A DNA stretch of 64,000 nt from a virus. Below are positions 7,174-51,283 of the stretch, piece after piece; the first letter of the stretch is position 1; each line of letters begins with the position of its first letter. A program made the position numbers and the translations under genes. The DNA is taken from IMG/VR virus record IMGVR_UViG_3300045051_000978, positions 1 through 64,000 of that record; one strand, given 5' to 3'. The notes under the pieces were generated by a model. It had not been told where the DNA came from, searched no databases, and saw only the letters and a program-made list of their open reading frames with translations.

Positions 7174-7751
7174 AAGAAATCGTTTGCGAGCTTACGCACG
7201 CGCTCCAGGCACTTCTCGTAGTGCGCATTGGCCCAGACGTGCATGAACGTCGGCTTTTGACCACCGAGCAGCGACCGCGGATTGGCGATCACGTGCTCTG
7301 GAAAAAGGGCTCGTCTCTTCACGACAGCCGGAAGAGCCAAAAGGCTGGCCATGAAATCTTGCTCCTGCAACCGGTGATCCAGCCAGTTCGGCATGCTGTC
7401 GTGGACCGTAGACAGAAGCCAGTTTGACCATCTGCCGGCCTTGTACAGGACTGCGCCGCTACAGATGCCGTTGTAGTCCTGCGACGCCGTGAACTCAACC
7501 GACTCGTCGTATACAATCGGATCGCACTTCACAGGTACGATGTCGATGTCCATCCACATGACGTAGTCGAACGCCTGGAGCTTCGAGCGCACCAGCGCGT
7601 AGCGGCTTTTGTATGGATGAACGCCCTGGGGTGAAGACTGTAGTTCGTACTCCCACCCATTCCGAGCGCACCAGCGCTGGACAGCAGGTGAGGCGGCTTC
7701 CGCGTACGGTCTGTACCTGGCGTCAACCGCCTGGAAAATAAGCCGACCCAT
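7158..7751 (-). CDS. Glycosyltransferase, GT-A fold, galactosyltransferase GMA12/MNN10-like, 197 aa
   Basis: Nucleotide-sugar-dependent glycosyltransferase by motif. K-S-R-Y-A-L-V-R-S-K-L at about 50 is followed by YVMWMDIDIVPV (DxD metal site), then ASQDYNGICSGAVL and LQEQDFM, the order seen in GT34-type enzymes. It may modify a virion or host surface glycan (inference). The ATG overlaps the stop of the upstream gene, and the 3' end overlaps tRNA-Tyr, so mRNA and tRNA maturation compete. Confidence 0.85.
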   Translation of the reverse strand: MGRLIFQAVDARYRPYAEAASPAVQRWCARNGWEYELQSSPQGVHPYKSRYALVRSKLQAFDYVMWMDIDIVPVKCDPIVYDESVEFTASQDYNGICSGAVLYKAGRWSNWLLSTVHDSMPNWLDHRLQEQDFMASLLALPAVVKRRALFPEHVIANPRSLLGGQKPTFMHVWANAHYEKCLERVRKLANDFLVAYP

Positions 7752-8203
7752 CAGTACCTCGAAAACCCTCGGCGGCTGAAAGCGCGGTCGTAGCTTTTGA
7801 CATCTTCGAGGGACCGACGCTGAAGCGATCCGATCCAGTAGCGAATTTCGTCCGCTCCACGCTCAAGCGCGCCTGCGTGCACGAAAATGGCCTTGCGCCG
7901 TCGCCACAGCTTCCACCCGTCGCCTTCCTGGCGTGCCAGGCGTGCCTTCACCGTCACGTAACCTTTGTCTACGGAATTGATCAGTGTCAGCCGAACGTGC
8001 GTGTAAACGCGACCGTTCGCGTTGAGTGCGGTGATGGGCTCGTGAAGTGGGATGTTCAGCACCGCGACGTTGTCGCTGAGCGCCGTCATCCCAAGCTCTG
8101 TTGCGATCTCTCTGATCGGCGAAGGCTGGTCCAGAAAATCGCGAATGGCGTCCAGGTCGGAGTCATCGTCGTCCACGCCGTTCTCGCCGTTCTCGATCAG
8201 CAT
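7751..8203 (-). CDS. Hypothetical protein, 150 aa
   Basis: Acidic N-terminus (VDDDDSDLD) then a mixed alpha/beta sequence containing VAVLNIPLHEPITALNANG and a basic C-terminus (RAFSRRGFSRY). I start at ATG 8203 because the longer frame reads through tRNA-Trp (8216-8288). Coupled to the glycosyltransferase by a 1-nt overlap. No family recognised. Confidence 0.7.
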   Translation of the reverse strand: MLIENGENGVDDDDSDLDAIRDFLDQPSPIREIATELGMTALSDNVAVLNIPLHEPITALNANGRVYTHVRLTLINSVDKGYVTVKARLARQEGDGWKLWRRRKAIFVHAGALERGADEIRYWIGSLQRRSLEDVKSYDRAFSRRGFSRY

Positions 8204-8215
8204 CCTGGCGGAAAG

Positions 8216-8288
8216 TGGCACGGAGAGAGGGTGCTGCCCCCTCCAGGACTGGTTTTGGAGACCGGTCTGCACAGCTGGTGCCCTCCGT
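8216..8288 (-). tRNA. tRNA-Trp(CCA)
   Basis: Acceptor ACGGAGG/TCTCCGT, loop CTCCAAA (anticodon CCA) in a context like bacterial tRNA-Trp (CCGGTCTCCAAAACC), T-arm GAGGG-GGCAGCA-CCCTC, discriminator G, CCA encoded. The D-arm is weak (GCAC/GTGC) and 28-42 is mismatched, which may make it hard for tRNA finders. Confidence 0.82.
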
Positions 8289-8289
8289 A

Positions 8290-8529
8290 TCAAAGCTCTG
8301 GAAACATGCCTCGTTGCTTGCCGCGGCTGTAGTAGCGCGGGTCCTCGGCGAGGTGGTCGAGTGCGATCTCCTCGGCGACCTTCGGGTCGTTCGTGTGCTC
8401 CATCTCGACCTCGATCCCCATCTTCAGCTCCTCGGGATCGACGCCGCTGGTGTCGTGCAGCTCGCCTTGACGACTTCCACCTGGGATGTGGTCTTCAAGG
8501 AGTCTGTTTACGATCAAGCGCGCATTCAC
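8290..8529 (-). CDS. DUF5661-like small phage protein, 79 aa
   Basis: Contains GIEVEMEHTNDPKVAEEIALDH and AEDPRYYS, the hallmark of the viral DUF5661 family (E.EHT....A..IA..HL.E.P.YY). The N-terminus MNARLIVNRLLEDH carries the LLED segment shared by other proteins in this genome. The start is GTG at 8529, preceded by TAGTTAGGGC. The stop lies 1 nt before tRNA-Trp. Confidence 0.85.
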   Translation of the reverse strand: MNARLIVNRLLEDHIPGGSRQGELHDTSGVDPEELKMGIEVEMEHTNDPKVAEEIALDHLAEDPRYYSRGKQRGMFPEL

Positions 8530-8533
8530 GCCC

Positions 8534-8539
8534 TAACTA
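8534..8539 (-). promoter_or_regulatory. TAnTTA start element (TAGTTA)
   Basis: TAGTTA, then GGGC, then the GTG start at 8529. It sits in the 13-nt gap after tRNA-Ala(GGC). Confidence 0.5.
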
Positions 8540-8542
8540 GAG

Positions 8543-8618
8543 TGGTGGAGCGGGGGAGAGTTGCACTCCCGACCTTCGCAATGCCATTGCGACGTTCTGC
8601 TATCTGAACTACCGCCCC
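8543..8618 (-). tRNA. tRNA-Ala(GGC)
   Basis: Acceptor GGGGCGG/CCGCTCC with the alanine identity pair G3-U70, D-arm TAGTTC..GAAC, stem TCGCA/TGCGA, loop ATGGCAT (GGC), T-arm GGGAG-TGCAACT-CTCCC, discriminator A, CCA encoded. Confidence 0.93.
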
Positions 8619-8883
8619 GAAAGTGGGGGCTGTCGGGGTTTTCACCCTTTGTCGGCAACAGCCGGGTGCCGGCGCAGTTGATTTCACGCTTTGTCGTCCC
8701 GTGCTTCAGCGCCAGGGATCGAACCTGGCCTACCGAGTAACCCCGGCGTTCACCGTAAACTACGCGAAGCACGTCTACTGCGAAAGCAAGCGGCACCCCT
8801 TTTACGCTGACGGACAGATTCGTGATTTCGAGGTCGCACGACCGACCCGCTGCCGTCCCACGGACAAGCCAAGTGCCGCTAAA
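8619..8883 (-). other. Gene-poor tRNA spacer
   Basis: 265 nt with no convincing gene. It contains GGCTGT..ACAGCC (8645-8680 area), two similar TTTCAC(C/G)CTTTGTCG boxes, and the degenerate tRNA at 8701-8772. Confidence 0.35.
8701..8772 (-). pseudogene. Degenerate tRNA-like element
   Basis: A D-arm-like TAGTTTACGGTGAAC, a shortened anticodon arm (CCG..CGG) and T-arm CCAGG-TTCGATC-CCTGG are recognisable. The ends pair as GTGCTTCGCG/CGC-T-GAAGCAC, a 10-bp helix with one bulge rather than a normal acceptor, and CCA is absent. Probably a tRNA remnant. Confidence 0.4.
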
Positions 8884-8959
8884 TGGTGGAAGTGACAGGA
8901 CTCGCACCTGCAACCTGATGCTTGCAAAGCACCTGCTCTACTAATTGAGCTACACCCCC
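8884..8959 (-). tRNA. tRNA-Ala(TGC)
   Basis: Acceptor GGGGGTG/CACTTCC with G3-U70, D-arm TAGCTC..GAGC, loop TTTGCAA (TGC), T-arm GCAGG-TGCGAGT-CCTGT, discriminator A, CCA encoded. Confidence 0.94.
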
Positions 8960-8970
8960 GTGAAAACTGT

Positions 8971-9204
8971 TTACCAAACGACCGGATTGGAAGTTCGGTT
9001 ACCGATCTGCTCGCCGTTCGCAAGGTACGACTGCTCGCCAGAACTGTAAACGAATTTCAACTCATGACCGGTATCGTTCCGGAGGCTGGCTCCTGGAGCC
9101 ACCGTGAGAGGTTCGCCGATGGTCAATGTCTGGCCCTCCAGCTTGAGGCTCGGGTACCGGCCCAGGCGCGAAACGCGCACACTTCCTTTCAACGTCATGC
9201 TCAT
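8971..9204 (-). CDS. Small beta-rich protein, 77 aa
   Basis: MSMTLKGSVRVSRLGRYPSL, then LTIGEPLTVAPGASLRND: short alternating strands without Cys or membrane segment, typical of small phage accessory virion proteins. The longer frame upstream reads through tRNA-Gly, so I start at ATG 9204 (a second ATG lies at 9198). Unknown function. Confidence 0.65.
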   Translation of the reverse strand: MSMTLKGSVRVSRLGRYPSLKLEGQTLTIGEPLTVAPGASLRNDTGHELKFVYSSGEQSYLANGEQIGNRTSNPVVW

Positions 9205-9218
9205 GCTTGGTTCAGAAC

Positions 9219-9294
9219 TGGAGCACCCGACCGGCTTTGCTCCGGCGACATCCACGTTGGCAACGTGGTGCTCTACTGGCTGAGCTACGGGTGC
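9219..9294 (-). tRNA. tRNA-Gly(GCC)
   Basis: Acceptor GCACCCG/CGGGTGC, stem CCACG/CGTGG, loop TTGCCAA (GCC), T-arm GCCGG-AGCAAAG-CCGGT, discriminator T, CCA encoded. Rightmost tRNA of the array. Confidence 0.95.
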
Positions 9295-14378: not shown

Positions 14379-14384
14379 TAACTA
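14379..14384 (-). promoter_or_regulatory. TAnTTA start element (TAGTTA)
   Basis: TAGTTA begins with the TAG stop of the polymerase gene and lies 7 nt before the ATG at 14,371. Confidence 0.45.
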
Positions 14385-17300
14385 CGCCGCCAGGAGAGCG
14401 TCCCAATCGATCTTGTCGTGCGGTATCACGGGAATCTTGACCGAGTCGTAGTAGGTCAAACCGACTTCGCAGTCACCCACGATGGGCACCGTCAACCAGG
14501 ACAGATCGTACGCGTCGCCAAACAGGCCCTTCATGACCTCAGGGAAGTTGTTCAGCACGTCGTGAACGATGGCGTGCACCCTGGGCAGTTCCGAGCGCAC
14601 CGCGTCAATCAGCAGCGAGTCGTGCACCGTCGATACCAGCACGGACTCCAGCCCCTCAGCCCGCATCAACAGCTCGATGGCGCGCAGTGCCGTCAGCATC
14701 ATGTCCGAAGCCGTACTCTGGATGACGTGGTTGCAGCCAGCGCGCAGCGCTTTGGCCGCAGCTTCCCGGTCGTCGCCGAAAACTTCCTCAAGGATGCGCA
14801 CGCGGCCGAAGACCGAAACGGCCACACCCGTCTCCGTGATGAAGCGCTTGTAGTAGCTCAGGAATTTGCGCAGAGACGGGTAAGCATCGAAGAAGGCTTC
14901 GATGATTTTCTCGCACTCCTCCTGGCTCATGTACACTTCGTTGTTCGCCAGGATCGTTTGCAGACCGAGCGCTCCGCCGCCGTAGCCTGTCAAAAAGTTT
15001 ACAGTTTTGCCAATGCGCCGTTTCAGCTCCAGTTCCTTGCGCTCGGCCGTGCGCCCCTCCTTGTCCAGCTTCTCGAAGTATTCCTTGGAAAAGTTCTCGT
15101 ACGGCAGTTTGTAGATTCGACTGGTGGTGAGCGTGTGCAGGTCGGTTTTGTCGTAGTACGCCTTGATCATCGTCGGATCACCGCAGGCGCACGCCATCAG
15201 CCGAAGCTCGATCTGAGAAAGGTCGGCCTGGTACATGCACCCGCGTTCGCCAAACCGCGAGACGAACAGCTGCTTGACCAGGCCCTTGTTGGGCAGCTGC
15301 TGAAGATTCGGATCGCGTGAGCTGAGCCGACCCGTTCGCGTACCCGTCAACAAAAACTGCGCATGCACGCAGCTGTCCCAGCAAAGGTGCGCATCCTTTT
15401 CGCGCTCCTTTTTGTCGATGTCACCCTCGAAGATGTTCCGTAGAGGCCGAATGTAGGTCGAGTAGAGCTTGAAAACCTGACGGTACTTCTGAAGCGGCCG
15501 GACCTCCGGATGATCGACAGCCAGCTTGTTGAGCGTGAACTTGTCCAGCGCCGCGTACTTCAGCTTGTCCTCTTCCGTCATCTCGCCGGCAGCGATACGC
15601 TTTTCCCATTCCTCTGGCAGTTCACCGAACAGCTTACGTCCGGACTTGGTCAGGCGCTGCACTGGCAGGTTGAGCAAGCCGAACAGGATGTAGCGAAGAT
15701 GGGCTTTGTTTTCGAGGTCAAGATGCCAGTCTGGGTCTTGGGCAAGTTCAGCCTCGCACCAGTTCTTGATCGCCTCGTTGACCTCGCTGACTTTCTTGCG
15801 TGCGTCACGAACCTCACGTGGAAAGGTTTGCTCAAACTCAGTCAGCACGCCCCGGTCCACGTACATGCCGCGAGCCATGACGCACATCAGCGTCCGCGCT
15901 GCCGGCGACATGACGTTTTCGTAAACCCACTTGCGCGATGGCGTCTCAAACATCCTGAAGTGGCCGGGACGATCCGGGTCAGCCAGTGGAATTTTGTAAA
16001 CCTTGACGCTCCCCAGACGCTCATCCAAAACTTCACGTGCCTGGTAGCACGTCTCAACATCGCCCATGATGTACGGGACAACGTGCGTTGGATAAAACTC
16101 CTCCTCGATGTTCAGGTAATGCGGGTTCGGCTCTTCCGGATGCTCGACCTTGCTCGACTTCCGCGCCTTCTTCTTTTTCTTGCCGTCAGGCTCTTCTGTT
16201 TCCTCCGCGGCTGGCGGTGTTTCCTCCGCTTTTACCGGCGTCTCTTCCGATGGAGCACGTTCGACCAAGTCCTCGTCTAGTTTGACTGCCTTACGCGACC
16301 CTGGATGCAGCTGCCACTCGCGCCGGGCAATCAACATGGTCATGTCTTCCTCGTACCCAGCCATGTCCTTGGCGTACAGGTAAGCGAGCATCTCCAGTCC
16401 GAGCGTGCCTCTGGTCTGGCGCAGCGTGTAAGCCATGTGCCAGGTATCCCAGAGAAAAGCGTTCGCCAGGGCAACCAGGTGTGCATCCCAAGCCCTATTG
16501 AATTCTGTAGACGTTTTGCGAAGCGTGTCCAGGTCAGCGTTAGTCTTGTAGCCGTAGACCGCGAACTCGGGACGCTTGACGTTGAAAAGCGTATACAAAA
16601 AGTCAAACGTCGCATTATGCGCAACCAGCTTCGAGCACGACAGCGCATCCAGCACCAAGGGCGAAAGCCAGTCGATGTGATCGACGATCTTGTTGTCGTA
16701 GTGGCTTGACCTGAAGTTCCATGGAAATCCAAGCGACCTGGGCTCGCCTGACGATGGATTGGTCCAGCGAAACATCATCGCCACGATGGCCGCATCGACA
16801 GCCAGAGGCTTCAGGCCGGTCGTTTCCGTGTCGAAGCAGACCACCATGCCGGGGTTGTTGATGATCTCACGCAAGCCGGCAGCAACCTCGTCCGGATTGT
16901 TCGTGTACCGATACCACGGGCGCAGGTACGTGTTGGGCTCAATACCTTCCCGTGCCGCAATCAGTGCCTCCTTGATGGCCTTGCGCCAGCGCGTCGTGAC
17001 GTTCGGATTCTGCTTCTGGCGGATGAGCCGGGGCGTCTGAATCGGAATGATCGGTATGCGAAACTGCGTCGGCGCTGGCCCAAACAACGGGTGCCCGACG
17101 ATCATCTCTTGATCGTCGGCCGGATTCGGCCGCGGCGACATGAACTGCTCGTCCATCAGCCAGTCGTCAGGCCACCCGCGGTACGTCAGTACCTTACCCT
17201 GCCAATCTTCGGCGTTGCTTTTGTGGCAGAGGGCTCCGAGCGCCACGGTGCCCACCGCCAGGATCAGCTGAGGCGGGTTGAACATCAGCTCCTCGACAAT

Positions 17301-17828
17301 GTGAAATCGGCACCAGTTCGCTTTGACCTTGAGGTTGGCCTTGCGCGTGCGATCAGCGCACCGAACAACAGGAACCCACCTGATCTGGTCCATGGAGACG
17401 CCCGTTTCGCTCTCCAGGTCCTCGATCATCCTGCGCATGTAGCCGTTGTTGCCGGCGCTGGCCAGAGTCGGCTGGTCGTCTTCGATGCTCGTGACGCCTT
17501 CGTAAACAATTGTGACGAGCGGATTTTTCGGACCTTCGTACGGTCGGAACGCGGCTTTGCACCCGTTGAGGTACATCGCGCATTGTTTACAAATCGGCGA
17601 ATCCGGCCCAGGCTTCAGCTCGTTGGGCGGAATCGGAGAATGCGGGTCGAAAACCAGCTCGCGCCGATCACCGTTCTGAGTAATACCGTGCCAGTATTCG
17701 AGGACATCCCGGTAGCGCTTGGAGATCAGCGTCTTCGTCATTTCACGCCCGGCCGGATCGAGGTAGACGACCTGGTCTTTCTTCGCCGTTCTCAGACGAC
17801 GCACGGGCTTGTCGGTTATGTCTCCCAC
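14382..17828 (-). CDS. DNA polymerase I family with N-terminal uracil-DNA-glycosylase-like domain, about 1,148 aa
   Basis: Replicative family-A polymerase. The N-terminal about 260 residues match the family-4/5 UDG fold: CKQC, a third Cys, then RCAD..NWC, the spacing of the 4Fe-4S ligands, and FNPPQLILAVG. The usual GEAPG motif is replaced, so glycosylase activity is doubtful. Next come a 3'-5' exonuclease (VVCFDTETTGLKPL), a Lys/Glu-rich insertion (about 545-585), and polymerase motifs A (DLSQIELRLMA), B (RRIGKTVNFLTGYGGG) and C (STVHDSLL). Start uncertain: I chose GTG 17,828, preceded by CTACAGGGC like other starts here; the frame is open to 17,864. Confidence 0.93.
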   Translation of the reverse strand: MGDITDKPVRRLRTAKKDQVVYLDPAGREMTKTLISKRYRDVLEYWHGITQNGDRRELVFDPHSPIPPNELKPGPDSPICKQCAMYLNGCKAAFRPYEGPKNPLVTIVYEGVTSIEDDQPTLASAGNNGYMRRMIEDLESETGVSMDQIRWVPVVRCADRTRKANLKVKANWCRFHIVEELMFNPPQLILAVGTVALGALCHKSNAEDWQGKVLTYRGWPDDWLMDEQFMSPRPNPADDQEMIVGHPLFGPAPTQFRIPIIPIQTPRLIRQKQNPNVTTRWRKAIKEALIAAREGIEPNTYLRPWYRYTNNPDEVAAGLREIINNPGMVVCFDTETTGLKPLAVDAAIVAMMFRWTNPSSGEPRSLGFPWNFRSSHYDNKIVDHIDWLSPLVLDALSCSKLVAHNATFDFLYTLFNVKRPEFAVYGYKTNADLDTLRKTSTEFNRAWDAHLVALANAFLWDTWHMAYTLRQTRGTLGLEMLAYLYAKDMAGYEEDMTMLIARREWQLHPGSRKAVKLDEDLVERAPSEETPVKAEETPPAAEETEEPDGKKKKKARKSSKVEHPEEPNPHYLNIEEEFYPTHVVPYIMGDVETCYQAREVLDERLGSVKVYKIPLADPDRPGHFRMFETPSRKWVYENVMSPAARTLMCVMARGMYVDRGVLTEFEQTFPREVRDARKKVSEVNEAIKNWCEAELAQDPDWHLDLENKAHLRYILFGLLNLPVQRLTKSGRKLFGELPEEWEKRIAAGEMTEEDKLKYAALDKFTLNKLAVDHPEVRPLQKYRQVFKLYSTYIRPLRNIFEGDIDKKEREKDAHLCWDSCVHAQFLLTGTRTGRLSSRDPNLQQLPNKGLVKQLFVSRFGERGCMYQADLSQIELRLMACACGDPTMIKAYYDKTDLHTLTTSRIYKLPYENFSKEYFEKLDKEGRTAERKELELKRRIGKTVNFLTGYGGGALGLQTILANNEVYMSQEECEKIIEAFFDAYPSLRKFLSYYKRFITETGVAVSVFGRVRILEEVFGDDREAAAKALRAGCNHVIQSTASDMMLTALRAIELLMRAEGLESVLVSTVHDSLLIDAVRSELPRVHAIVHDVLNNFPEVMKGLFGDAYDLSWLTVPIVGDCEVGLTYYDSVKIPVIPHDKIDWDALLAA

Positions 17829-27132: not shown

Positions 27133-27615
27133 ATGTACTCTGACCAATTCCACGTCATCGAATTCATGCGTGCAGCCCAGCAGCCTGTCCCTGACGAGCC
27201 TGGGATGCCTGACCTGAACACACGCAATCTGCGCATCCGGCTGATCGCGCAAGAGCTGCGCGAACTCGCGCACGCCTACGGAATGCGCCTGGTCATGGAC
27301 ACTGCGCTGCCGGAGGATGCAATGGCAATCGAGGCGGACCCAAACCTCACTCCCAGCCTCAGAGACGCCTACGACGCCACCCTGGACATTCAGTACGTCA
27401 CGGTCGGAAACGGCGTCGCGATGGGCCTGGACCTCCAACCCGGCTGGGAAGAGGTGCAGAAGAGCAACATGAGCAAGTTCATCGACGGCTACAAAGCGCC
27501 CTCCGGCAAGTGGATCAAGGGGCCGTCCTACCACCCTGCGAGGCTTCAGCCCATCATCGACGCCCAGATCGAAGCGGCGCGGGCGCGCAAACGGCAAGCT
27601 CAACTCGGGCTGTAG
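27133..27615 (+). CDS. MazG-like / phosphoribosyl-ATP pyrophosphohydrolase-fold protein, 160 aa
   Basis: All-alpha NTP pyrophosphatase-type sequence: NLRIRLIAQELRELA (EE-type metal helix), ATLDIQYVTVGNGVAMGLD and GKWIKGPSYHPARLQPII, as in phage PRA-PH/MazG proteins. May adjust nucleotide pools. It ends at TAG 27,613, and the next gene starts in the same frame 15 nt later, so suppression of this amber codon would fuse the two. Confidence 0.85.
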   Translation: MYSDQFHVIEFMRAAQQPVPDEPGMPDLNTRNLRIRLIAQELRELAHAYGMRLVMDTALPEDAMAIEADPNLTPSLRDAYDATLDIQYVTVGNGVAMGLDLQPGWEEVQKSNMSKFIDGYKAPSGKWIKGPSYHPARLQPIIDAQIEAARARKRQAQLGL

Positions 27616-27630: not shown

Positions 27631-28386
27631 ATGCGCCGCGACTTCCTACAGCAGCTGTTCGGTGATCCGTCCGTCGAGGAAAGGCTGATGCAGCCTGCCC
27701 ACATCGATGAGCTGATCAGCCGCATTTTCGAGGAAGCAGATCAGCAGGAAGCCGGTCTGCTCAAAGCCAACAAGAAACCGCTTGCGGATGCGCTGAAGAG
27801 CGTCGGCGTAAACGCTGCGGTCGAGGCATTTCCTCAGTGGTGCGAAATCCGGTTCGACAACGAGGCGGATTACCGCGCCGCCTGTGCGTCGATTTTCACG
27901 CCAGACGCCATGCACGACCTGGCGCAAGCCGGCTGGGTCGCGGCCAAGAGCGGTGACGAGGGCATGGCCAACGAAGCCCCCGACTTCAAGATCGGTTTCT
28001 TCGAGGTCAGCGTAGCCGGCGAAGATGCTTCCGACACCGAAAAGGCTCCTGACCTGGAAAAGGTGATCAAGGACGGCCGGTCAGCCGCGACCAAGGAACA
28101 GGATCGGGATGACGACGAGCTGAATCCGGTCGAGAATCCGGATGACGAGATGGGCGGCAAAGCCGAAGGCGTCGGCAAACCGAAAGATGGCGCTGATCCC
28201 AAGGGCAAGCCGAAGGGCAGCTACGAGAGCGCCGCAGCCATCGCAAGCGACCTCCTGGAAACGACGATGGCCTCAGCCATCCCTGCCCCTGTCGAAGCTC
28301 CTCTCGGGACAGCGCGCAGAGACACCCGCAATCGCAAGCGCATGGACGCGCTTCGCCGCCGGCATTCAGGCAAGTCCAAGCCATGA
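27631..28386 (+). CDS. Acidic hypothetical protein, 251 aa
   Basis: Helical N-terminal part (LMQPAHIDELISRIFEEADQ) followed by a charged, probably disordered region (DRDDDELNPVENPDDEMGGK), a helix SYESAAAIASDLLETTM, and a basic end RKRMDALRRRHSG. ATG preceded by TAGTTAGGCG. First of a run of short overlapping genes to 32,103. Function unknown; the layout suits a head or scaffold-associated protein (inference). Confidence 0.7.
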   Translation: MRRDFLQQLFGDPSVEERLMQPAHIDELISRIFEEADQQEAGLLKANKKPLADALKSVGVNAAVEAFPQWCEIRFDNEADYRAACASIFTPDAMHDLAQAGWVAAKSGDEGMANEAPDFKIGFFEVSVAGEDASDTEKAPDLEKVIKDGRSAATKEQDRDDDELNPVENPDDEMGGKAEGVGKPKDGADPKGKPKGSYESAAAIASDLLETTMASAIPAPVEAPLGTARRDTRNRKRMDALRRRHSGKSKP

Positions 28387-34163: not shown

Positions 34164-34507
34164 GTATGTTTACACAGTCCTACGTCGAAGAAGCTCACCG
34201 CATCGCGCTGGAAGCGTCGCTGCGCGGTCGGGCAGGGTTGACGCCTCCCCTGCTTCTCAAGCTCTACAAGCACGCGCACGACGCCGCGCTCACCGGACCG
34301 TCGAAGGAAAACGGATTCTTCCACTCCAGAATCCAGACCGAAGCCTACGTCATCGGAACGTGTACGGACGCGAAGACCGGCTTCTACGTGCAGCTGGTGA
34401 AGCGCAGCAATGAGCCGCACATGCTTCTGACCATCGGGCAGAAGTTCGCCATGGAAAACGTCGATGCTGTACGCGGCAACATCAACACCCAGTTCTGGCA
34501 GGCATGA
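34160..34507 (+). CDS. Hypothetical protein, 115 aa
   Basis: MSMFTQSYVEEAHRIALEAS, then LTPPLLLKLYKHAHDAALTG and a beta-rich end (TGFYVQLVKRSNEPHMLLTI). The ATG overlaps the RusA stop and the stop overlaps the next ATG, so it is part of a coupled rusA-glycosyltransferase unit. Confidence 0.7.
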   Translation: MSMFTQSYVEEAHRIALEASLRGRAGLTPPLLLKLYKHAHDAALTGPSKENGFFHSRIQTEAYVIGTCTDAKTGFYVQLVKRSNEPHMLLTIGQKFAMENVDAVRGNINTQFWQA

Positions 34508-35304
34508 GCACGCATACGCGAACCTACGACGGGCGAGTTGAGGCGGTCATCGTCTGCCTGAACTACGCGGACTTCCTTGCCGAAACTCTGCCGCGCAACC
34601 TGTCTCACATCGACAGGTTGGTCGTTGTCACCGGCTTCGAGGATCACGCCACACGTGAAGTGTGCCGGCGATGGTCTGTTGAGTGCGTCGTCAGCGATGT
34701 GTTTACGGAAAAAGGGGAGACGTTCAACAAAGGCGCAGGGATCAACTTCGGCCTGGGCGCGATCCGACAGAAGGGCTGGATCATTCAGATGGACGCCGAT
34801 GTGGTTCTGCCGAACAACTTCCGGAACATGCTCGACAAGTCCGCTCTGGACCGAGGCTGCCTGTACGGGTGCGAGCGTGTGAACGTCGTCGGTTACGACC
34901 GCTGGGCCAAGCTGAAGGAGGAATGGTTTACCGATCCGCAGTTCGCCTACCGGTACCTTGTCAGCAGTTCGCCCGATCTCCCCATCGGCGCGAACGTCGT
35001 ACACAAACAGTACGGCTACGTGCCCATTGGATTCTTCCAGCTCTGGCACTCCGCCTACATGCACGAATACGAGCTGCGCTACCCTGAAACGGAGGGCACG
35101 GCCGAGAACATGGACGTGCAGTGGGCGCTCCGCTGGCCCCGCGCCAAACGGCGCATGCTTCCAACCTTCCGCGTCTTCCACCTGGAGAGCGAAGGCGCAC
35201 ACATGGGCGCAAACTGGAATGGGCGCAAGACCAAACCGTTTACACCAAACGGCCAGCCTATGCCAGTGCCGCAGCGACCGGCTGGCTACGGGTACTGCTC
35301 TTAG
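34504..35304 (+). CDS. Glycosyltransferase family 2-like protein, 266 aa
   Basis: VEAVIVCLNYADFLAETLPR, DRLVVVTGFEDHAT, FNKGAGINFGLG and GWIIQMDADVVLP (DxD metal site), then HEYELRYPETEGTAENMDVQ, the order of GT2/GT-A enzymes. Transfers a sugar from a nucleotide donor; acceptor unknown. Third glycosyltransferase of the window. Its end overlaps the convergent ATPase gene by 47 nt. Confidence 0.85.
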   Translation: MSTHTRTYDGRVEAVIVCLNYADFLAETLPRNLSHIDRLVVVTGFEDHATREVCRRWSVECVVSDVFTEKGETFNKGAGINFGLGAIRQKGWIIQMDADVVLPNNFRNMLDKSALDRGCLYGCERVNVVGYDRWAKLKEEWFTDPQFAYRYLVSSSPDLPIGANVVHKQYGYVPIGFFQLWHSAYMHEYELRYPETEGTAENMDVQWALRWPRAKRRMLPTFRVFHLESEGAHMGANWNGRKTKPFTPNGQPMPVPQRPAGYGYCS

Positions 35305-36949
35305 CGCAGTCGCTGTCCTTCGGAAGGAACTGGTTGACGTAGTTGACCAGCTCAACAGTCACCGGTTGGTTTTTCTGGCGCGCTGCAAGGCGCGCCAATT
35401 TGATCAGCGCCTTCACGCGCCGGCCACTGATCCCCTCGAACATGCTCGTCAGCGTGTCGATCTGGTCCTCGTCGAATTCCAGCAGGTAGTGATCCGAAAG
35501 AACGCGCCAGATGCGGCGCAGCGCTTCCTTCGTCGGGTAGGTGTACTCGATGTAGGCGGTAGCCCTGGAAAGAATGGCGTCGTCGATGATGGTGGCACGA
35601 TTCGAGGTCATGAAGAGCACGCCTCGATACGCTTCCAGGACGCGCAGGAAAACGCCCACAATGGCGTTTTGGTGAATGTCGTTCCCGCGTTCGTGGATGT
35701 ATACGTCCGCCTCGTCGATCAAGAGAATGGCGTTCCAACGCGTTGCGCGCTGCAACACCTTGCGCAGCTCCTTTTCAAGAGCCTCCTCGTCGGTGCCAAG
35801 CTGTGAACACTGCACCTCGTAGAGCGGGCGCTTGATCTGTTCGCTGAAGACTTGCGCCGTGAGCGTCTTACCCGTTCCAGGCGGACCAACGCAGATGACG
35901 ACAACGCCGCCCGTCTTGCCCTTGACGATGTCCTCCATCAACTGGCTGGACCCCGCAACCAGCATGCCGACCAGCGTCTTTCGGTCCTCGGGCAGCACCA
36001 GCTTGTCGATCACAGTCTCGTCGTAAACGTATTCGACGAGGTAGCTCACGTGCACCTGAAAATGCTGGTGAGCCTGGAGATCGAACACCGTGACATACGG
36101 GTGCAACGGCACCTCGGCAACTTCCTCGTCATCTGAATCCGGATCAGGAGTTTGACTCTCCGTCTTCCAAAACGAAGTCGAAGCGATGCTCGGACGCGAC
36201 CTGGACGACTTTTCCTCTCCGTTTTCTCCGCCTTCGTCCACGACAACCCGCGCCGGCTGACCCTCGCGCTCAAGGCTGACCCACTCGCGCCCGTAGCCCC
36301 ACGACGAAGCGGCCATGCCGTACCCATGAAACTGGTGGCCGATTTTTGCAGCCACCTCACGGTAACGGTCGATGGTGCCCTCGTACTCCTCAACCATGGA
36401 AGGCGTTTCCAAGTAGTAGCCTCTGGAGTTGAGCAGCTCGATGATGGTCTTGCGCTGGAAAATGTCGTCGCTGTAGAAGGTCAACATTTTGTCCGTGTTG
36501 CCGCCTCGCGTGGCGTACACCATTTTGATCGTGGCGTGCGCAGGCCCGCGGTCACGACTGCCCGGCGTGTAGTTGGCATCCACCACGTAAAGCGGCAGGG
36601 CTGCGCCGTCCTCCTCGTTCGCGTAAAACAGCCACTTGTGCGGCAGTGCCCCGACGCAGTGCTTCACAGCCACAGGCACCTGTTCAAGCTTGGTGATCGG
36701 CGCGCCGCCTGGCTTCGCTTTGAGCTTCAACCAGGAGTTGATCTTGTTGATCACTCCACGCGTTTTTTCATTTTGCAGGGTGCCCAGGTAGGCCAGGACG
36801 GCGCGAATCTCGATGTCCGTGAACTTGCCCAGCTCAATGTCGGCCATGGCGTCGTCGCCACGATACCGAAACGTCTCGATGAACTCGTCACGCAACGCCT
36901 TCTGCGTCACGAGTGCTCTGATCCAGGAACCCTTGAGATTTACGCGCAT
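35258..36949 (-). CDS. AAA+ ATPase, 563 aa
   Basis: The C-terminal AAA module has Walker A CVGPPGTGKTLTAQ (about 358), Walker B NAILLIDEADVY (about 410), sensor 1 LFMTSN, and arginine-finger region DDAILSRATAYIEYT. The N-terminal 340 residues are phage-specific, with an acidic Ser-rich linker (about 240-290). May remodel nucleoprotein or act as a chaperone. The ATG at 36,949 lies next to the suppressor tRNA. Confidence 0.88.
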   Translation of the reverse strand: MRVNLKGSWIRALVTQKALRDEFIETFRYRGDDAMADIELGKFTDIEIRAVLAYLGTLQNEKTRGVINKINSWLKLKAKPGGAPITKLEQVPVAVKHCVGALPHKWLFYANEEDGAALPLYVVDANYTPGSRDRGPAHATIKMVYATRGGNTDKMLTFYSDDIFQRKTIIELLNSRGYYLETPSMVEEYEGTIDRYREVAAKIGHQFHGYGMAASSWGYGREWVSLEREGQPARVVVDEGGENGEEKSSRSRPSIASTSFWKTESQTPDPDSDDEEVAEVPLHPYVTVFDLQAHQHFQVHVSYLVEYVYDETVIDKLVLPEDRKTLVGMLVAGSSQLMEDIVKGKTGGVVVICVGPPGTGKTLTAQVFSEQIKRPLYEVQCSQLGTDEEALEKELRKVLQRATRWNAILLIDEADVYIHERGNDIHQNAIVGVFLRVLEAYRGVLFMTSNRATIIDDAILSRATAYIEYTYPTKEALRRIWRVLSDHYLLEFDEDQIDTLTSMFEGISGRRVKALIKLARLAARQKNQPVTVELVNYVNQFLPKDSDCAKSSTRSQPVAAALA

Positions 36950-36957
36950 AGAAGAGG

Positions 36958-37031
36958 TGGTGCCTGCGGCAGGAATCGAACCCGCTTGTCCCGGTTTAGA
37001 GTCGGTAGGCCAGCCAATGGCCCACGCAGGC
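36958..37031 (-). tRNA. Suppressor tRNA, anticodon CTA (reads UAG)
   Basis: Acceptor GCCTGCG/CGCAGGC, D-stem GGCC/GGCC, anticodon arm ACCGA-CTCTAAA-CCGGG with T33 and anticodon CTA, T-arm GCGGG-TTCGATT-CCTGC, discriminator A, CCA encoded. The arm has an A31-C39 mismatch, also present in tRNA-Arg(TCT). It is separate from the main array. TAG is still a normal terminator for many genes here, so it may give partial readthrough. Confidence 0.85.
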
Positions 37032-37055
37032 TTTCAAAATGTTTACACTTTTTCG

Positions 37056-37076
37056 CGAAACGGGTCAAGCGTTTCG
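37056..37076. promoter_or_regulatory. Inverted repeat CGAAACG/CGTTTCG
   Basis: Perfect 7-bp arms around a 7-nt loop, 14 nt before the small gene at 37,090. No T-tract, so an operator or regulatory hairpin is more likely than a terminator. Confidence 0.4.
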
Positions 37077-37444: not shown

Positions 37445-37710
37445 AAGCGCCTCCTCAATTCAACCAGCGGGAGATCAACGATCTGAAGGACGTGATCATT
37501 CTGCACCTCGTGGAAATGGCCGAGGCCAACTACGAGGGAGACCTGCACGCGAAGCTGGTAACGGGTAAACCGCTCGACCAGGGCGAATGCGGGCACTACG
37601 TCGATCTCATGCGAAGGCAGAACTTGCCTGACCGCTTTCGCCCCCTACTCGATAAGCTGGAACGCCTTGCTCGCGAAAGTACGCCGCATCCTGCTTCGTC
37701 CGCGCCTTGA
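37441..37710 (+). CDS. Hypothetical protein, 89 aa
   Basis: MKAPPQFNQREINDLKDVII, helical, with ECGHYVDLMRRQNLPDRFRP. Overlaps the upstream stop. Its last 100 nt overlap the convergent receiver gene. No family. Confidence 0.6.
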   Translation: MKAPPQFNQREINDLKDVIILHLVEMAEANYEGDLHAKLVTGKPLDQGECGHYVDLMRRQNLPDRFRPLLDKLERLARESTPHPASSAP

Positions 37711-38107
37711 CCTTGTAGGTTCGGAACACCTGATCGAGTGCTTTGCCGTCAATCGGCTTGGCCAGAATACCCACGACGCCGATCTCGGCAGCCTGCTGAG
37801 CGGCGTTGCTTTGCGTATACCCGGTGACGATGACCACAGGGACGTTGGGCCACTTGGCCTTGATAGCGCGCAGCACGTCCACGCCACTGATCCCGGGCAG
37901 GCACAGGTTGAGGAAAATCAGGTCGAACGGTCCAAGCTGGTCGATGCACGCCAAGGCATCTTCGCCCGTCTTCGCCCACTTCAGCTCGCACTCGTATTGG
38001 TGCTCAAGCCAGTATACAATTCCTGCGCCTACCGCTTCGTCGTCCTCCACTAGTAGCAGCTTTGGCGGACGAATCAGCGTTTCGAGCAGCGCAGTGACGG
38101 AACTCAC
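37607..38107 (-). CDS. Stand-alone receiver domain with Asn at the phosphoacceptor site, 166 aa
   Basis: Response-regulator receiver fold: acidic pair LLLVEDDEAV, F-D-L-I-F-L-N-L-C-L-P-G where the phosphorylated Asp is replaced by Asn (AAC codon), VVIVTGY (conserved Thr), and ILAKPIDG (conserved Lys). No output domain; a basic C-terminal tail follows. Such pseudo-receivers usually act through protein contacts. Start GTG 38,107 overlaps the TGA of the upstream gene. Confidence 0.85.
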   Translation of the reverse strand: MSSVTALLETLIRPPKLLLVEDDEAVGAGIVYWLEHQYECELKWAKTGEDALACIDQLGPFDLIFLNLCLPGISGVDVLRAIKAKWPNVPVVIVTGYTQSNAAQQAAEIGVVGILAKPIDGKALDQVFRTYKVKARTKQDAAYFREQGVPAYRVGGESGQASSAFA

Positions 38108-45296: not shown

Positions 45297-46802
45297 GTGC
45301 GTTTTACTCTACACGATCTGCCGTTTCTCGCGTCGCTCGGAGCAACCGGAACTGTCGTCATCATCGACGCCGGCACCGAGTTCGGCAGCCACTATGTAGG
45401 CGTATTTGACGGCACGTACTTCGACGTTCCGGACGACCAGGCGTCGTACTTCCTGGCCCTGACTACGGGGACCCTGTTCGACTACACCGTAGACAATTCG
45501 TCGCTCCAGGTCTACGTCAGCGGCGGTACCCAAACGTCGATCACCGCCGAGGCCGCGTTCGGGTTCATCCAGGTCGCCTCAGGAACGTACAGCCTGGCAA
45601 CACCGGATAGCGCTGTCACCGAAACCTCCGTCACCAACGGCTCCTATTACACGCCCACTCTGGACCTGGCGACAACAGGTCTGCACGTGCAGAACGGCAC
45701 GTACACGTCCGCTTCGGTTGACAGCGCGACAGGCTCTTCATCGGTAAGCACTGGAACACTGGCAACACCAAGCACCGACAGCGCTTCTTCATCAGCTCTC
45801 CTCGGATCAGGCACGATTTCAACGCCGACGCAGGACACAGCGGACCACACGGCAAGCATTTCAGACGGAAGCTACGCACCTGGCGCGCCTGACCTCAGCC
45901 AGACAGCCTTGGCCGTATCCGCGGGCACGCACGTGCCCTACAACGTTGATTTCGCATCCGGCATCGAAGGAATTTCAAACGGCGACTACCAGACAGCCAT
46001 CGTCGATGAATCCACGAACCAGCCTGGCGTTGCTTCAGGCACCCTGACCCTTCCTGAAATCGACAGCACCGACAGCACTGTAGCGGTTTCAAACGGGACA
46101 CTGATCGTTTACAGTCCTGATGCTTCAACTTCCAGCACGGCAGTCTTCGACGGCACCAACCAAGCCGCCAACACGGACAACATCGCCTGGTTCCTCGCTG
46201 TGTCCGATGGTTCGTATGCAAGCTACGCTGGCGACGCCAGCAGCGCTCTCGTCGCGCTCGGCACAGGCACGTACAGCGCGTATACGCTAGACACGTCAGC
46301 TGGCACGACCGCCCTTCTACCGACGACAGGAACCATCGATCACTGGCTCCGGCAGAACGAGTGGGAAGCACTCGACATTACTGTCGTCGATTTCGGCAGC
46401 TACACGTACCCCTACGCGCTGGAAGTCCAGCTGCTCTACCCGATCTCTGGAGCGCTCCGCAGTGACGCACGTCTGTATACGGCAGATCGTACGATTTTCA
46501 CATGGCCCTTGTTCATGGGCAACTCGCCGTTCTGGTACAACCCACGCAAGTGGACCTGCGACGACGAGGGAACGATCACGTGCGACCTTGATCGCTCGGC
46601 CAGCGACACAGCAGACCTGACCACGATCACGGCAGACGCGTCGCTGATGGCGATGGACTCCACCGAAGAGACCTTTGACTCAACCAGCCTGACACTGGAT
46701 ATTTCCAACACTACCGACCTCGGATCGGCGCGGTTCGACGATGGCACAAGCTCGCCGACCGTTGACGAAACCGTCTGGTCCTGGGCGCACGTTCCGGTAT
46801 GA
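45297..46802 (+). CDS. Repeat-rich tail protein, 501 aa
   Basis: More than ten degenerate repeats of the type (A)VSNGTYxxxxxDxSxxx (residues about 75-340), then a globular end (LEVQLLYPISGALRSD, WYNPRKWTCDDEG). The GTG start is inferred. It interrupts the beta-helix paralogs. Likely forms a thin fibre. Confidence 0.75.
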   Translation: MRFTLHDLPFLASLGATGTVVIIDAGTEFGSHYVGVFDGTYFDVPDDQASYFLALTTGTLFDYTVDNSSLQVYVSGGTQTSITAEAAFGFIQVASGTYSLATPDSAVTETSVTNGSYYTPTLDLATTGLHVQNGTYTSASVDSATGSSSVSTGTLATPSTDSASSSALLGSGTISTPTQDTADHTASISDGSYAPGAPDLSQTALAVSAGTHVPYNVDFASGIEGISNGDYQTAIVDESTNQPGVASGTLTLPEIDSTDSTVAVSNGTLIVYSPDASTSSTAVFDGTNQAANTDNIAWFLAVSDGSYASYAGDASSALVALGTGTYSAYTLDTSAGTTALLPTTGTIDHWLRQNEWEALDITVVDFGSYTYPYALEVQLLYPISGALRSDARLYTADRTIFTWPLFMGNSPFWYNPRKWTCDDEGTITCDLDRSASDTADLTTITADASLMAMDSTEETFDSTSLTLDISNTTDLGSARFDDGTSSPTVDETVWSWAHVPV

Positions 46803-47704
46803 GCCAGCAGATTATCGACATCGGCAACGCCTCTGACGACAGGCGCGGCGATTCGCCACGTCTAGCCGGTCAAAAGATCAACGCCAACTTCAGCGAACTG
46901 TACCCCTACTTCAACCGGAACAGGGTCGTGACGGACGTGGTGCTGTACGTCAGCACGACCGGCAACGATTCAAACAACGGACTCACTCCGGGCACTCCGT
47001 TTCTGACCGTCCAGAAGGGCGTCGATGTCGCATTGGCGGACTACATCATCCCCGACGGCAAGCGCGTCACAGTTCAGTTGGCAGACGGAACGTACACGCT
47101 ATCCACGGCTGTCCGATTCCGCGGACCACGCTTTGGTAATGCCATCGTTTCGTCGCGCTCCCTGATCATCCAGGGAAACGTTGGCACGCCAGCCAACGTG
47201 ATCGTCCAGTGTTCGACGAACAACGTCTTCCTGATCTATAACGGCTTCATCGAACTCCAAGGCATGGAGCTTCGCTGCACTTCGGCTGGAGCTGCCTGCG
47301 TCTGGGCTGAAGGCTTTTCGCGTGTAAGCTTGGCCTCCATGCGTTTCGGAGCCTCAGCTGCGGCGGCTGCCCACATCAACCTCTTCTACAACTCGTACTG
47401 CTTCGCCACTTCGTATACAGTGTCAGGCAGCTGCGCACGCCACATCAATCTGAACCACGGCAGCATGTTCCGGATGAGTTCAGCCACCATCACGTTCTCC
47501 GGAGCACCAGCGTTTTCCACTACGCTCTTGCAAGGACTGCTTGGGTCGGTTTTTGACCTGAACGCTGTAACCTACTCGGGAGCCATCACCGGCACACAGT
47601 ACGCGCTTACGAATCTGAGCATCCTGTCTTCCACCAACACAGTACCTGGGACAGCTGGAAGCGTCTCTACGGGCTCAAGGGTCATCAGCACAAGCTACAG
47701 GTAG
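46799..47704 (+). CDS. Beta-helix tail-fibre paralog 2, 301 aa
   Basis: QIIDIGNASDDRRGDSPRLA, GQKINANFSELY, YVSTTGNDSNNGLTPGTPF, VQLADGTYTLS and a C-terminal beta-helix. Overlaps the preceding stop; TAG stop one base before the next gene. Confidence 0.85.
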   Translation: MSQQIIDIGNASDDRRGDSPRLAGQKINANFSELYPYFNRNRVVTDVVLYVSTTGNDSNNGLTPGTPFLTVQKGVDVALADYIIPDGKRVTVQLADGTYTLSTAVRFRGPRFGNAIVSSRSLIIQGNVGTPANVIVQCSTNNVFLIYNGFIELQGMELRCTSAGAACVWAEGFSRVSLASMRFGASAAAAAHINLFYNSYCFATSYTVSGSCARHINLNHGSMFRMSSATITFSGAPAFSTTLLQGLLGSVFDLNAVTYSGAITGTQYALTNLSILSSTNTVPGTAGSVSTGSRVISTSYR

Positions 47705-47705
47705 T

Positions 47706-48611
47706 ATGGCGCAGCAAACCATAGATGTCGGCAGCGCAGCGAACACTGGAGGAGAGTCCTTCTACTCCGGCGCGACGAAGATCAATGCCAACCTCACGGA
47801 GCTGGAAAGTAAAATTCTTGCTCCAGCTGAAGACGATCTGATCATCTATGTTTCCCCTTCGGGCAGCGACTCAAACAGCGGGCTTACTCCGTTTGACCCG
47901 GTCCTCACACTCGTCCGTGCGACCAGGATAGTTCACGACACCTATTTCACCACGAACGGCCAGGTCATCACGATCAAGCTGGCGGATGGAACGTATACAG
48001 CATCAACGGAGTGCCTTCCTGTACACGGCAACGGCGTCGTTCGCATCCTCGGAAATTCTGTAAACCCTGCAAACGTCCTGCTCACGACAGGGTCGAGTTC
48101 GACGCTGCTGTTCGCAACGCCGTGCCGCTACCTCCTGGCGGGCTGTGAGGTGCGTTGCTCAACTGGTTCCGGCACGGCCTGCGTCGTCGCCCGCCAGATG
48201 GCCTACGTCCAGATCGGGACAGGGATGATTTTTGGCCCAACGTCGGCGTCTTCAGATCACATCAACGCGACCGACCAGGGAATCGTGTCTGCTGTCGGAA
48301 ACTACTCGATCAACGGAGGGTGTCGGTATCACTACCACGCCAACTACGACGGACTCATCAAGGCAAACGGCATCACCTGCACAGTGACCTCATCTGTCAG
48401 CATGACGCGGTTTGCAAGGGCCATTGTGGCTGGAACTATCGAGTCGTTCAGTAGCACGTACGTCAACAGGAACAACGTTTCCACCTCCGCCTTCAACGCG
48501 GACATCTACGAAAACAGCGTCATCAACTGCCAAGGCGGTACCACTGCCAACTATTTTCCTGGTAACGGAGGCCCGGACGCCAACGGAACCAGCAACGGCT
48601 ACTGCTACTGA
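47706..48611 (+). CDS. Beta-helix tail-fibre paralog 3, 301 aa
   Basis: QTIDVGSAANTGGESFYSGA, TKINANLTELE, YVSPSGSDSNSGLTPFDPV and IKLADGTYTAS, then a beta-helix with Cys-rich turns and a C-terminal TTANYFPGNGG. One-base overlap with the next gene (TGATG). Confidence 0.85.
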   Translation: MAQQTIDVGSAANTGGESFYSGATKINANLTELESKILAPAEDDLIIYVSPSGSDSNSGLTPFDPVLTLVRATRIVHDTYFTTNGQVITIKLADGTYTASTECLPVHGNGVVRILGNSVNPANVLLTTGSSSTLLFATPCRYLLAGCEVRCSTGSGTACVVARQMAYVQIGTGMIFGPTSASSDHINATDQGIVSAVGNYSINGGCRYHYHANYDGLIKANGITCTVTSSVSMTRFARAIVAGTIESFSSTYVNRNNVSTSAFNADIYENSVINCQGGTTANYFPGNGGPDANGTSNGYCY

Positions 48612-49483
48612 TGATCACCACACCGCTCAGCATCGGCAATCCGAACAGCTGCACAGGCGACACGCTGCGCTCGGCTGGTCAAAAGCTGAACGATTCGTTT
48701 ACAGCCCTGTATGCGCTGCCAGCCGTCGGCTATGCGACCGACTACACCCTCTACGTCTCACCAACCGGCGACGACGCGAACGACGGAAAGACGGCACTGA
48801 CGCCTTTTCTGACGATTCAGAAAGCAGCCGACATTTTTCATCAGCACCAAAACCTGCAACAGAGCACACCTACGATTCAGCTGGCTGACGGAACGTATAC
48901 GCTCAGCGATGCAGTCTATCTCGGCAGGGTGTACGCCAACGGATTCCCAACCATTGTCGGAAACACGAGTGCACCGGCCAACGTCATCATCACCGCGGCG
49001 AATTCAAACTGCTTCAACGTGACGACCGGCACGTTTTGGATCATGAGCGGCCTTGAGCTGCGCTGCACGCTGTCCGGTGGTGCGTGCATCAGCATTGCAG
49101 AGCACTCCCGCGTTCAATTCGGCGCAGCCATGCGTTTTGGAACGTCTACAGGTGCGAACCACGTGGAAATCAATGATCACGGGATGTTCACGAACACGGT
49201 CGCTACAGCCATCACTGGCGGTGCTGCGCGGCACATCTACGCCATGAACTGCGCCTCGGCTCGTGTGGCTGCGGCGTACACGTTGACAGGAACTCCGGCT
49301 TTCAGCACCGCTTTCGTTCAGGCGAAAAACAGGTCGAACCTGAACCTCACCGGCTCCAGCTTCACCGGATCAGGCACGGGGAAGCGCTACGACGTAACAG
49401 GAATTGCCGTCGTAGCTACTGCCGGGCTGACCTTGCCCGGCAACGTCGGGGGCACAACCTCAAACGGCGGCATTTACTCATAG
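48611..49483 (+). CDS. Beta-helix tail-fibre paralog 4, 290 aa
   Basis: PLSIGNPNSCTGDTLRSAGQ, LYVSPTGDDANDGKTALTPF, IQLADGTYTLS and GSGTGKRYDV..LPGNVGGT at the end. It stops at TAG 49,481 and the next paralog begins in the same frame after one codon (CTT). Confidence 0.85.
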   Translation: MITTPLSIGNPNSCTGDTLRSAGQKLNDSFTALYALPAVGYATDYTLYVSPTGDDANDGKTALTPFLTIQKAADIFHQHQNLQQSTPTIQLADGTYTLSDAVYLGRVYANGFPTIVGNTSAPANVIITAANSNCFNVTTGTFWIMSGLELRCTLSGGACISIAEHSRVQFGAAMRFGTSTGANHVEINDHGMFTNTVATAITGGAARHIYAMNCASARVAAAYTLTGTPAFSTAFVQAKNRSNLNLTGSSFTGSGTGKRYDVTGIAVVATAGLTLPGNVGGTTSNGGIYS

Positions 49484-49486
49484 CTT

Positions 49487-50362
49487 ATGGCACTCCGCAC
49501 AATCAGCCTCGGCACGCAGGCCAACGACGGCACTGGCGATCCACTGCGTTCTGCGTTCAACAAAATCAACCAAAACTTCGCAGAGAGCTACCGCGAAGTT
49601 ATCGGCAGCGACCGCACCTACTACGTCGCAACTACCGGCAGCGATTCCAACGACGGTCTGACAATTTCAACGCCGTTGCTGAACATCCAGACCGCCGTCG
49701 ATCTCATTGCCAACACGCTCTTCATTCCGTCGAGCAGAACCGTCACCGTTCAACTCGCAGACGGAACGTATACAGTGAATACGTCCGTCGTTTTGCGCCC
49801 AACGGCCGGCGGAGGCACGTTCATCATCAGCGGCAACGCAGGCAACGCTGCATCTGTCATCTGCACCATTTCTGTAAACGGCGGAGTATACCTAGCGTCC
49901 GACATCGCAGGTCTCTGGAACATCCGTAATCTGACCTTGCAGAGTTCAGCCAGTGGCAGTGGTCTTGTCGCAGAGCGCGGAGCGTCCATCGCATTCCAAA
50001 ACCTGATCTTCGGATCAGGCATGTCCAGCCACCTGGTTCCGGCTACCAATTCGGCCATCCGGGCAACTGGCAACTACACGATCACGGGCAGTGCGACGCA
50101 GCACGTCAACTCTGTCGTCGGCGGCACGCTCGACGTGACAAATCGCACCATCACCCTCACGGGCACACCCGTCTTCACCTACTTCTGCAACTGCGGCTAC
50201 GCAGCGACCGCCAATTTTGCCGGCTGTACCTTCAGCGGATCGGCTACCGGCTCACGCTACCAGGTTTTTGCCAACGGCGTCATCATCACAGGCGGTGCCA
50301 GCGCAACGTTCCTGCCTGGAAACGCGGTGGGCACTACCCTGACCGGCGGCGTGTACGCCTAA
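49487..50362 (+). CDS. Beta-helix tail-fibre paralog 5, 291 aa
   Basis: TISLGTQANDGTGDPLRSAF, NKINQNFAESY, YVATTGSDSNDGLTISTPL, VQLADGTYTVN and GSATGSRYQV..FLPGNAVGT. In frame with paralog 4 across a TAG codon. Confidence 0.85.
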   Translation: MALRTISLGTQANDGTGDPLRSAFNKINQNFAESYREVIGSDRTYYVATTGSDSNDGLTISTPLLNIQTAVDLIANTLFIPSSRTVTVQLADGTYTVNTSVVLRPTAGGGTFIISGNAGNAASVICTISVNGGVYLASDIAGLWNIRNLTLQSSASGSGLVAERGASIAFQNLIFGSGMSSHLVPATNSAIRATGNYTITGSATQHVNSVVGGTLDVTNRTITLTGTPVFTYFCNCGYAATANFAGCTFSGSATGSRYQVFANGVIITGGASATFLPGNAVGTTLTGGVYA

Positions 50363-50386
50363 TGCCCAAAGGGGTAGTTAGCTGCG

Positions 50387-51283
50387 ATGGCGCAGCAAAC
50401 CCTGAATCTCGGCACCGGAGCCAACACCGGAGATGGCGACTCGCTTCGCGCTGCTGGCCAGAAGATCAACAGCAACTTCACCGAGCTGTACGCTCGGGCA
50501 AACATCCTGGCTCCTACAGGAAGCCTGACGCTTTATGTCGCCACGACAGGCAGCGACAGCAACGACGGTCTGACGGTCGGCACGCCATTCCTGACGGTCA
50601 ACAAGGGCCTCACAGAAGCCGCCAAGTACATCTCCTTCGGCATCGCGGTGACAGTTCAGGTTGCTGACGGAACGTACAGCACACCTCTGATCCGCATTCC
50701 CAGGCTTCTCACGACCGGGCAAGCGAGCGGTGCCTTGATCCTGCAAGGCAACCCGACGACGCCAGCCAACTGCGTCCTGAGCGCACAAGCCGCCATCGGC
50801 TCCCTGCTATTCGCTGACGGTCCGCTCAACGCGGCCATCACAGGCTTCCGCCTCGTCGGAAATGCCACGACGTATGCAATCGATGCCCGCAGCTACGCAC
50901 GCGTCGCTTTCTCGGCGATTGAGTTCAGCACCGGATTTACCATCCACATCCTTGCCGGCGAACCATCAACTGTCACGGCAGCAGGCAACTATTCCATATC
51001 CGGCGGAGCGGCTTCACACGTCTACGCGGCAAACAACGGCTACGTAAACCTGGCTGGGCGCACGGTCACAGTCAGCGGTTCGCCGGCATGGTCCAGCTCG
51101 TTTGTAGACATTAACCGAGGCGCGGTGCTGCAAGCGCAGAGCATGACGTTCTCCGGAACCGCGTCCACCGGCCAGCGCTACTTCATTTGGGCCAACGGAG
51201 TCGTTTACATTAACAGCGTCTCCACCACCTACTTTCCCGGCAGCCTTGCGGGCGTGATTCAAACCGGAGGTCAGTACCTGTGA
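50387..51283 (+). CDS. Beta-helix tail-fibre paralog 6, 298 aa
   Basis: TLNLGTGANTGDGDSLRAAG, QKINSNFTELYA, YVATTGSDSNDGLTVGTPF, VQVADGTYSTP and GTASTGQRYF..YFPGSLAG. TAGTTAGCTGCG precedes the ATG, so the block may be re-initiated here. Overlaps the next gene by 4 nt. Confidence 0.85.
   Translation: MAQQTLNLGTGANTGDGDSLRAAGQKINSNFTELYARANILAPTGSLTLYVATTGSDSNDGLTVGTPFLTVNKGLTEAAKYISFGIAVTVQVADGTYSTPLIRIPRLLTTGQASGALILQGNPTTPANCVLSAQAAIGSLLFADGPLNAAITGFRLVGNATTYAIDARSYARVAFSAIEFSTGFTIHILAGEPSTVTAAGNYSISGGAASHVYAANNGYVNLAGRTVTVSGSPAWSSSFVDINRGAVLQAQSMTFSGTASTGQRYFIWANGVVYINSVSTTYFPGSLAGVIQTGGQYL

Follow-up and report, generated by a model that had tools for sequence, protein, structure and literature searches.

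Amber suppressor tRNAs in phages that have not recoded TAG are already known. The Stenotrophomonas phage Summit carries such a tRNA without recoding, and a search for its target was negative, as it was here (PMC9022506), while clade 8 of the zeta crAss-like phages possesses a CTA suppressor tRNA without recoding, for which the authors suggest a host-directed role (PMC12386605). A CUA tRNA is also found in many phages that employ genetic code 15, in which TAG is read as glutamine (PMC11210395, PMC13037316). The phage analysed here adds a further case of the non-recoding kind: a CUA tRNA is present, and TAG is still a stop.

The window, a stretch of 64,000 nucleotides, comprises positions 1-64,000 of IMG/VR record IMGVR_UViG_3300045051_000978, a 126,921-bp linear virus record of 60% GC without end repeats, whose edge falls inside a tRNA array; it belongs to a large uncultured phage. 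Genes were called with a simple codon-usage script, which yielded 201 genes with starts that are therefore approximate. Two relatives, G001 and G002, were reached via a search with the NAD ligase (56% identical) and, as they share 99.996% identity across 91 kb, were treated as a single lineage; G003 was reached via a terminase search. G002 and G003 are diverged relatives of the window phage (TerL 65% identical), and gene-based comparison revealed that G003 and the window are collinear. A terminase search of genome assemblies returned no match, a protein search of IMG/VR with the AAA ATPase encoded beside the tRNA returned no relative, and blastn of the tRNA locus against GenBank phages returned no match.

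The first-pass annotation had described a suppressor-type tRNA with anticodon CTA, T33 and an encoded CCA, set apart from the main tRNA array, and both points were borne out. On the minus strand, ARAGORN calls a 74-nt tRNA whose anticodon is CTA and whose coordinates are exactly 36958-37031, and Rfam RF00005 matches positions 36961-37031 at 45.0 bits (E 2.4e-6; gathering score 29). The anticodon CUA (36997-36999, minus strand; tRNA nucleotides 33-35) lies in the loop CUCUAAA, and the gene, which combines a tRNA fold with CUA and U33 as a phage amber suppressor should, also has A37, A73, an encoded CCA, GG in the D-loop and the T-loop TTCGATT. The record contains one copy of it, separated by 27.6 kb from the closest tRNA of the array. 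ARAGORN labels it 'Pyl' because of the anticodon alone. The features of tRNA-Pyl are a single base between acceptor and D stem, a 3-nt variable loop and a T-loop without TTC; the window tRNA has two bases (T8 G9), a 4-nt variable loop and TTCGATT, and so does not have the body of a tRNA-Pyl.

Orthologues of this tRNA occur at the same syntenic position in G002 and G003, in each case outside any tRNA array. The G002 copy (G002:111560-111633) is the single CUA tRNA of a genome with ~40 tRNAs, lies 37 kb outside the array and, as in the window, is near a receiver-domain gene. The G003 copy (G003:26701) is the sole tRNA found on that contig, which ends short of the array region; there a small gene stands between the tRNA and the AAA ATPase, which in the window comes directly after the tRNA. 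The three copies are ~57% identical, with both-sided changes in 9 of 21 stem pairs, yet 96.8% of the stem-pair cells across the copies remain paired, a value equalled by none of 500 shuffles, and the anticodon loop is invariant at all 7 positions in 3/3 orthologues. Conserved position, compensatory stem changes and an invariant loop together indicate purifying selection on a tRNA with a CUA anticodon, fold and anticodon being maintained in three syntenic orthologues. The gene is genuine and not a chance match.

A pattern built on the three copies recovered no additional contig from IMG/VR; the anticodon arm, searched for as an exact pattern, matched 11 times, in each case by chance in non-tRNA DNA, and this search was discarded. 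Among 50,697 phage records, the best match of the G003 copy is a CUA tRNA, 81% identical, in a 595-kb phage. A fourth relative, G006, spans the same interval with no recognisable CUA tRNA; the suppressor is therefore not essential to the lineage. That interval of G006 holds a 114-nt tRNA-like gene (G006:65893-66006) on the opposite strand, considered as a counterpart and rejected, as its identity could not be established. G006 also encodes a tmRNA (L083:1767-2184) whose predicted tag, at 32 residues, is unusually long; it adjoins an initiator-like tRNA-Met. No tRNA was found in G007, which does not span the interval. Origin from the phage's own array was likewise considered; the closest array tRNAs are at most 74% alike in gapped alignment and differ in their elbow, and such an origin is hence not supported.

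We consider it probable that this tRNA is a functional amber suppressor, selectively kept, which would cause partial readthrough of UAG while UAG stays a normal stop of the phage. The best surviving alternative, though an unlikely one, is that the suppressor is still active in the relatives but survives in the window as a remnant that is decaying or functions weakly. The 'good cloverleaf' of the first-pass annotation is upheld by the ARAGORN and Rfam matches and by the acceptor, D and T stems, which are fully paired; it needs qualifying for the anticodon stem, which has two mismatches absent from the relatives (A27-G43 and A31-C39), and for the Rfam score, which reaches 45 bits against 61.5 and 69.7 for the G002 and G003 orthologues. 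The window copy also has U21, and its discriminator is A73 where both others have G73. From the mismatches and the changed discriminator it follows that the window copy could be weak or decaying. Against decay, the acceptor, D and T stems have remained paired despite the divergence of the copies (~57% identity), and anticodon loop, CCA and elbow are intact.

The functional-suppressor reading leads to the question of what is read through. An improbable answer is that readthrough is programmed in a single phage gene or a small number of them, for example from 27133-27615 into 27631-28386 or from 48611-49483 into 49487-50362, pairs that each share one frame with only TAG between them and have coding-like in-frame extensions. 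However, coding-like in-frame neighbours follow 5 of 38 TAG stops, 15 of 132 TGA stops and 7 of 31 TAA stops, so that TAG is not the commoner; the G002 orthologue of the first gene (27133-27615) is a separate gene ending in TGA; and the gene-based comparisons revealed no conserved fusion across TAG among orthologues. None of the orthologue alignments crosses a TAG within one gene, the only crossings leading into separate in-frame neighbours, and extensions past TAG are no shorter, and no more coding-like, than those past other stops. A six-frame readthrough comparison was swamped by non-coding frames and was set aside for the gene-based comparisons. No dedicated phage readthrough target was found on the contig, and a diffuse effect, including one on host mRNAs, is accordingly favoured over programmed readthrough. 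As to the second gene pair, 48611 and 49487 lie in one frame separated by TAG-CTT alone, and the window region 46799-51283, in the tail region, contains five consecutive genes of ~300 aa.

The tRNA has an AAA ATPase, a receiver-domain protein and a glycosyltransferase as neighbours. The AAA ATPase gene (35258-36949, minus strand; Pfam AAA, PHROG 29662) has a G003 orthologue that is 48% identical with a matching N-terminus, and the response-regulator receiver-domain protein (37607-38107, minus strand; Pfam Response_reg) is encoded upstream of the tRNA in a position conserved in G002 and G006. Since the conserved AAA start codon stands 8 nt past the CCA (36950-36957), tRNA and AAA ATPase are probably co-transcribed. 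A sigma70-like promoter candidate (37042-37068, minus strand), TTGACC-15-TGTAAA or TTGACC-17-TAAACA, ends 8-10 nt before G1 of the tRNA and matches at 9/12 positions (P 0.017, small GC-matched null). The corresponding candidate is strong in G002 (11/12), modest to weak in the window and not significant in G003, all against small nulls; a consensus promoter scan upstream of the window tRNA found nothing.

This arrangement could also mean that what is mainly maintained is an RNA element: the tRNA would form a folded 5' end, or a site for processing, at the start of the AAA ATPase transcript. The start codon does follow the CCA closely (8 nt in the window, 5 nt in G003 and 19 nt in G002), and in G002 a promoter-like site lies just before the tRNA, but the best-conserved part is the anticodon loop, which a mere leader would not need, and the gene after the tRNA differs between genomes, being either the AAA ATPase or a small ORF; we regard this explanation as very improbable. 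The absence of a Shine-Dalgarno motif after the tRNA is uninformative, as a motif of this type precedes only 8-18% of the called genes (in G000, G002 and G003). This low share suggests that the host does not rely on that motif.

TAG usage is that of an ordinary stop. TAG ends 38 of the 201 called genes (19%), and in the full record its share among well-scored genes is 19.8%, compared with 20.6% of all stop triplets genome-wide; in G002, G003 and G006, too, it equals the genome's own background. An apparent rarity of TAG stops in the suppressor carriers relative to G006 (P 0.02-0.04) vanished against each genome's background. Ten genes stop at a TAG where their orthologues stop at TGA or TAA, the DNA polymerase, a baseplate wedge and the AAA gene included, and the TAG ends noted in the first-pass annotation for the polymerase (14382-17828) and glycosyltransferase (34504-35304) were both found. 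Back-up stops after TAG are not in excess (Fisher P 0.68 at 10 codons), which counts against an efficient suppressor, because such a suppressor should select for them. The background TAG share, the drop in coding density on opening TAG (0.913 to 0.867), the orthologue stop coincidences and the lack of fusions exclude full reassignment of TAG for this contig, a recoding that had already been judged unlikely before these several independent tests. Genetic code 15, for the whole phage or its late genes, is thus refuted for this contig: its CUA tRNA is matched by no in-frame TAG in conserved genes, no density gain, no avoidance of TAG as terminator and, in this incomplete record, no class-I GlnRS-type synthetase or release-factor domain. 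The additional proposal that readthrough might be late gained no support: the promoter candidate is weak in the window, and TAG-ended genes occur, at background frequency, in nine tenths of the contig.

With UAG still serving as a stop, this predicted suppressor tRNA can only work as a partial one, and partial suppression appears likely. The tRNA would be expressed from a promoter of its own and would lead the AAA ATPase transcript, a single transcript giving rise to both tRNA and mRNA, and would be charged by a host synthetase. G73 together with U35 favours glutaminyl-tRNA synthetase, as in E. coli amber suppressors, and A73 with U35 is compatible with lysine or glutamine. By these identity rules, glutamine would be the most likely amino acid for the G002 and G003 copies (G73), and lysine or glutamine for the window copy (A73). 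The charged tRNA would then compete with release factor 1 at UAG, so that part of the ribosomes read through, and the phage may benefit because many UAG codons across the infected cell, also those of host mRNAs, are partly read through.

The suppressor differs from the main tRNA array in its elbow, for which the motif T54-U55-C56 is near-universal in tRNAs. The array (208-9294, minus strand) comprises 18 ARAGORN tRNAs, all with remodelled elbows: none has TTC at positions 54-56, where TGC occurs in 10, TTG in 3, AGC in 3, TGG in 1 and ATC in 1. A fitting D-loop partner (A18 or C18 with G55, C19 with G56) is present in 18/18, while shuffled D-loops fit 12.6 on average and at most 17, never 18, in 5000 shuffles; positions 18-19 were assigned by rule, and the decision to accept A or C opposite G55 as partners was made with the data in view, so that the shuffle test gives support but does not count as independent. 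The array of G002 (G002:50370-74307) presents a different set, mostly ATC, with TTG paired to C19, TTA to U19 and ATT to A19, and 36 of its 37 tRNAs have a fitting partner. In the control phage LRRHood, TTC is found in 24 of 26 tRNAs. The suppressor keeps the canonical GG/TTC in the window, G002 and G003, and is the sole ARAGORN-called tRNA of the window record to do so. Within the array, Rfam adds a tRNA missed by ARAGORN (695-769, minus strand; 40.7 bits), and PAS-domain proteins are encoded between array tRNAs at 3698-4507 and 4820-5335.

The canonical elbow of the suppressor may reflect another origin, the need to be fully efficient against release factor 1, or sensitivity to an elbow-directed agent. 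Evasion by tRNAs through anticodon-loop changes has been described (PMC10264068); elbow-based evasion was not found in the open-access literature. The contrast between suppressor and array may point to a tRNA-targeting activity that recognises the T-loop, and the novelty of the array elbow changes may exceed that of the suppressor. It is conceivable, if doubtful, that an 'elbow code' separates phage from host translation, in which swapped 18-55 and 19-56 pairs escape an agent, of the host or of the phage, that hits GG/TTC tRNAs, while the suppressor shares the fate of the host tRNAs. UAG suppression would then occur only early in infection, the opposite of recoded phages, for which late suppression has been proposed.

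Among known systems, Summit and its relative DLP5 resemble this phage in their standard code, similar GC content, predicted amber suppressor tRNA, amber-ended genes and lack of an identifiable target. Unlike this phage, Summit has 5 tRNAs only, and syntenic conservation and the elbow were not reported there. Clade 8 of the zeta crAss-like phages likewise keeps a CTA suppressor tRNA across large divergence without reassignment, but there TAG is described as rare or soon followed by TAA, whereas here it stands at background share without back-up stops. The cultured Mycobacterium phage LRRHood (Bixzunavirus) has a gene annotated 'tRNA Suppressor - cta', and keeps TAG as a gene terminator (7 of the 58 stops called in the part that was read); its suppressor, in contrast, lies within a large canonical array and is neither syntenic nor related. 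LRRHood and G002 each encode an RF-1-domain protein: that of G002 (L076:1330-1869; G002:168984-169298) has 179 aa and resembles domains 2-3 of release factor 1 without domain 1, and LRRHood gp203 is comparable to it. The uncultured 595-kb phage LR756511.1, home of the nearest match of the G003 copy, shares CUA, G73 and the loop CUCUAAA, with TAG an ordinary stop in one sampled stretch; it differs in that CCA is not encoded and no synteny was seen in the one stretch examined. Code-15 phages, some of them crAss-like, share the CUA tRNA but have in-frame TAG in conserved genes, which this phage does not. What the present locus adds to these systems is that conservation of position, fold and anticodon is demonstrable for a non-recoding suppressor tRNA; such tRNAs are hence not merely early steps to a new code or annotation noise.
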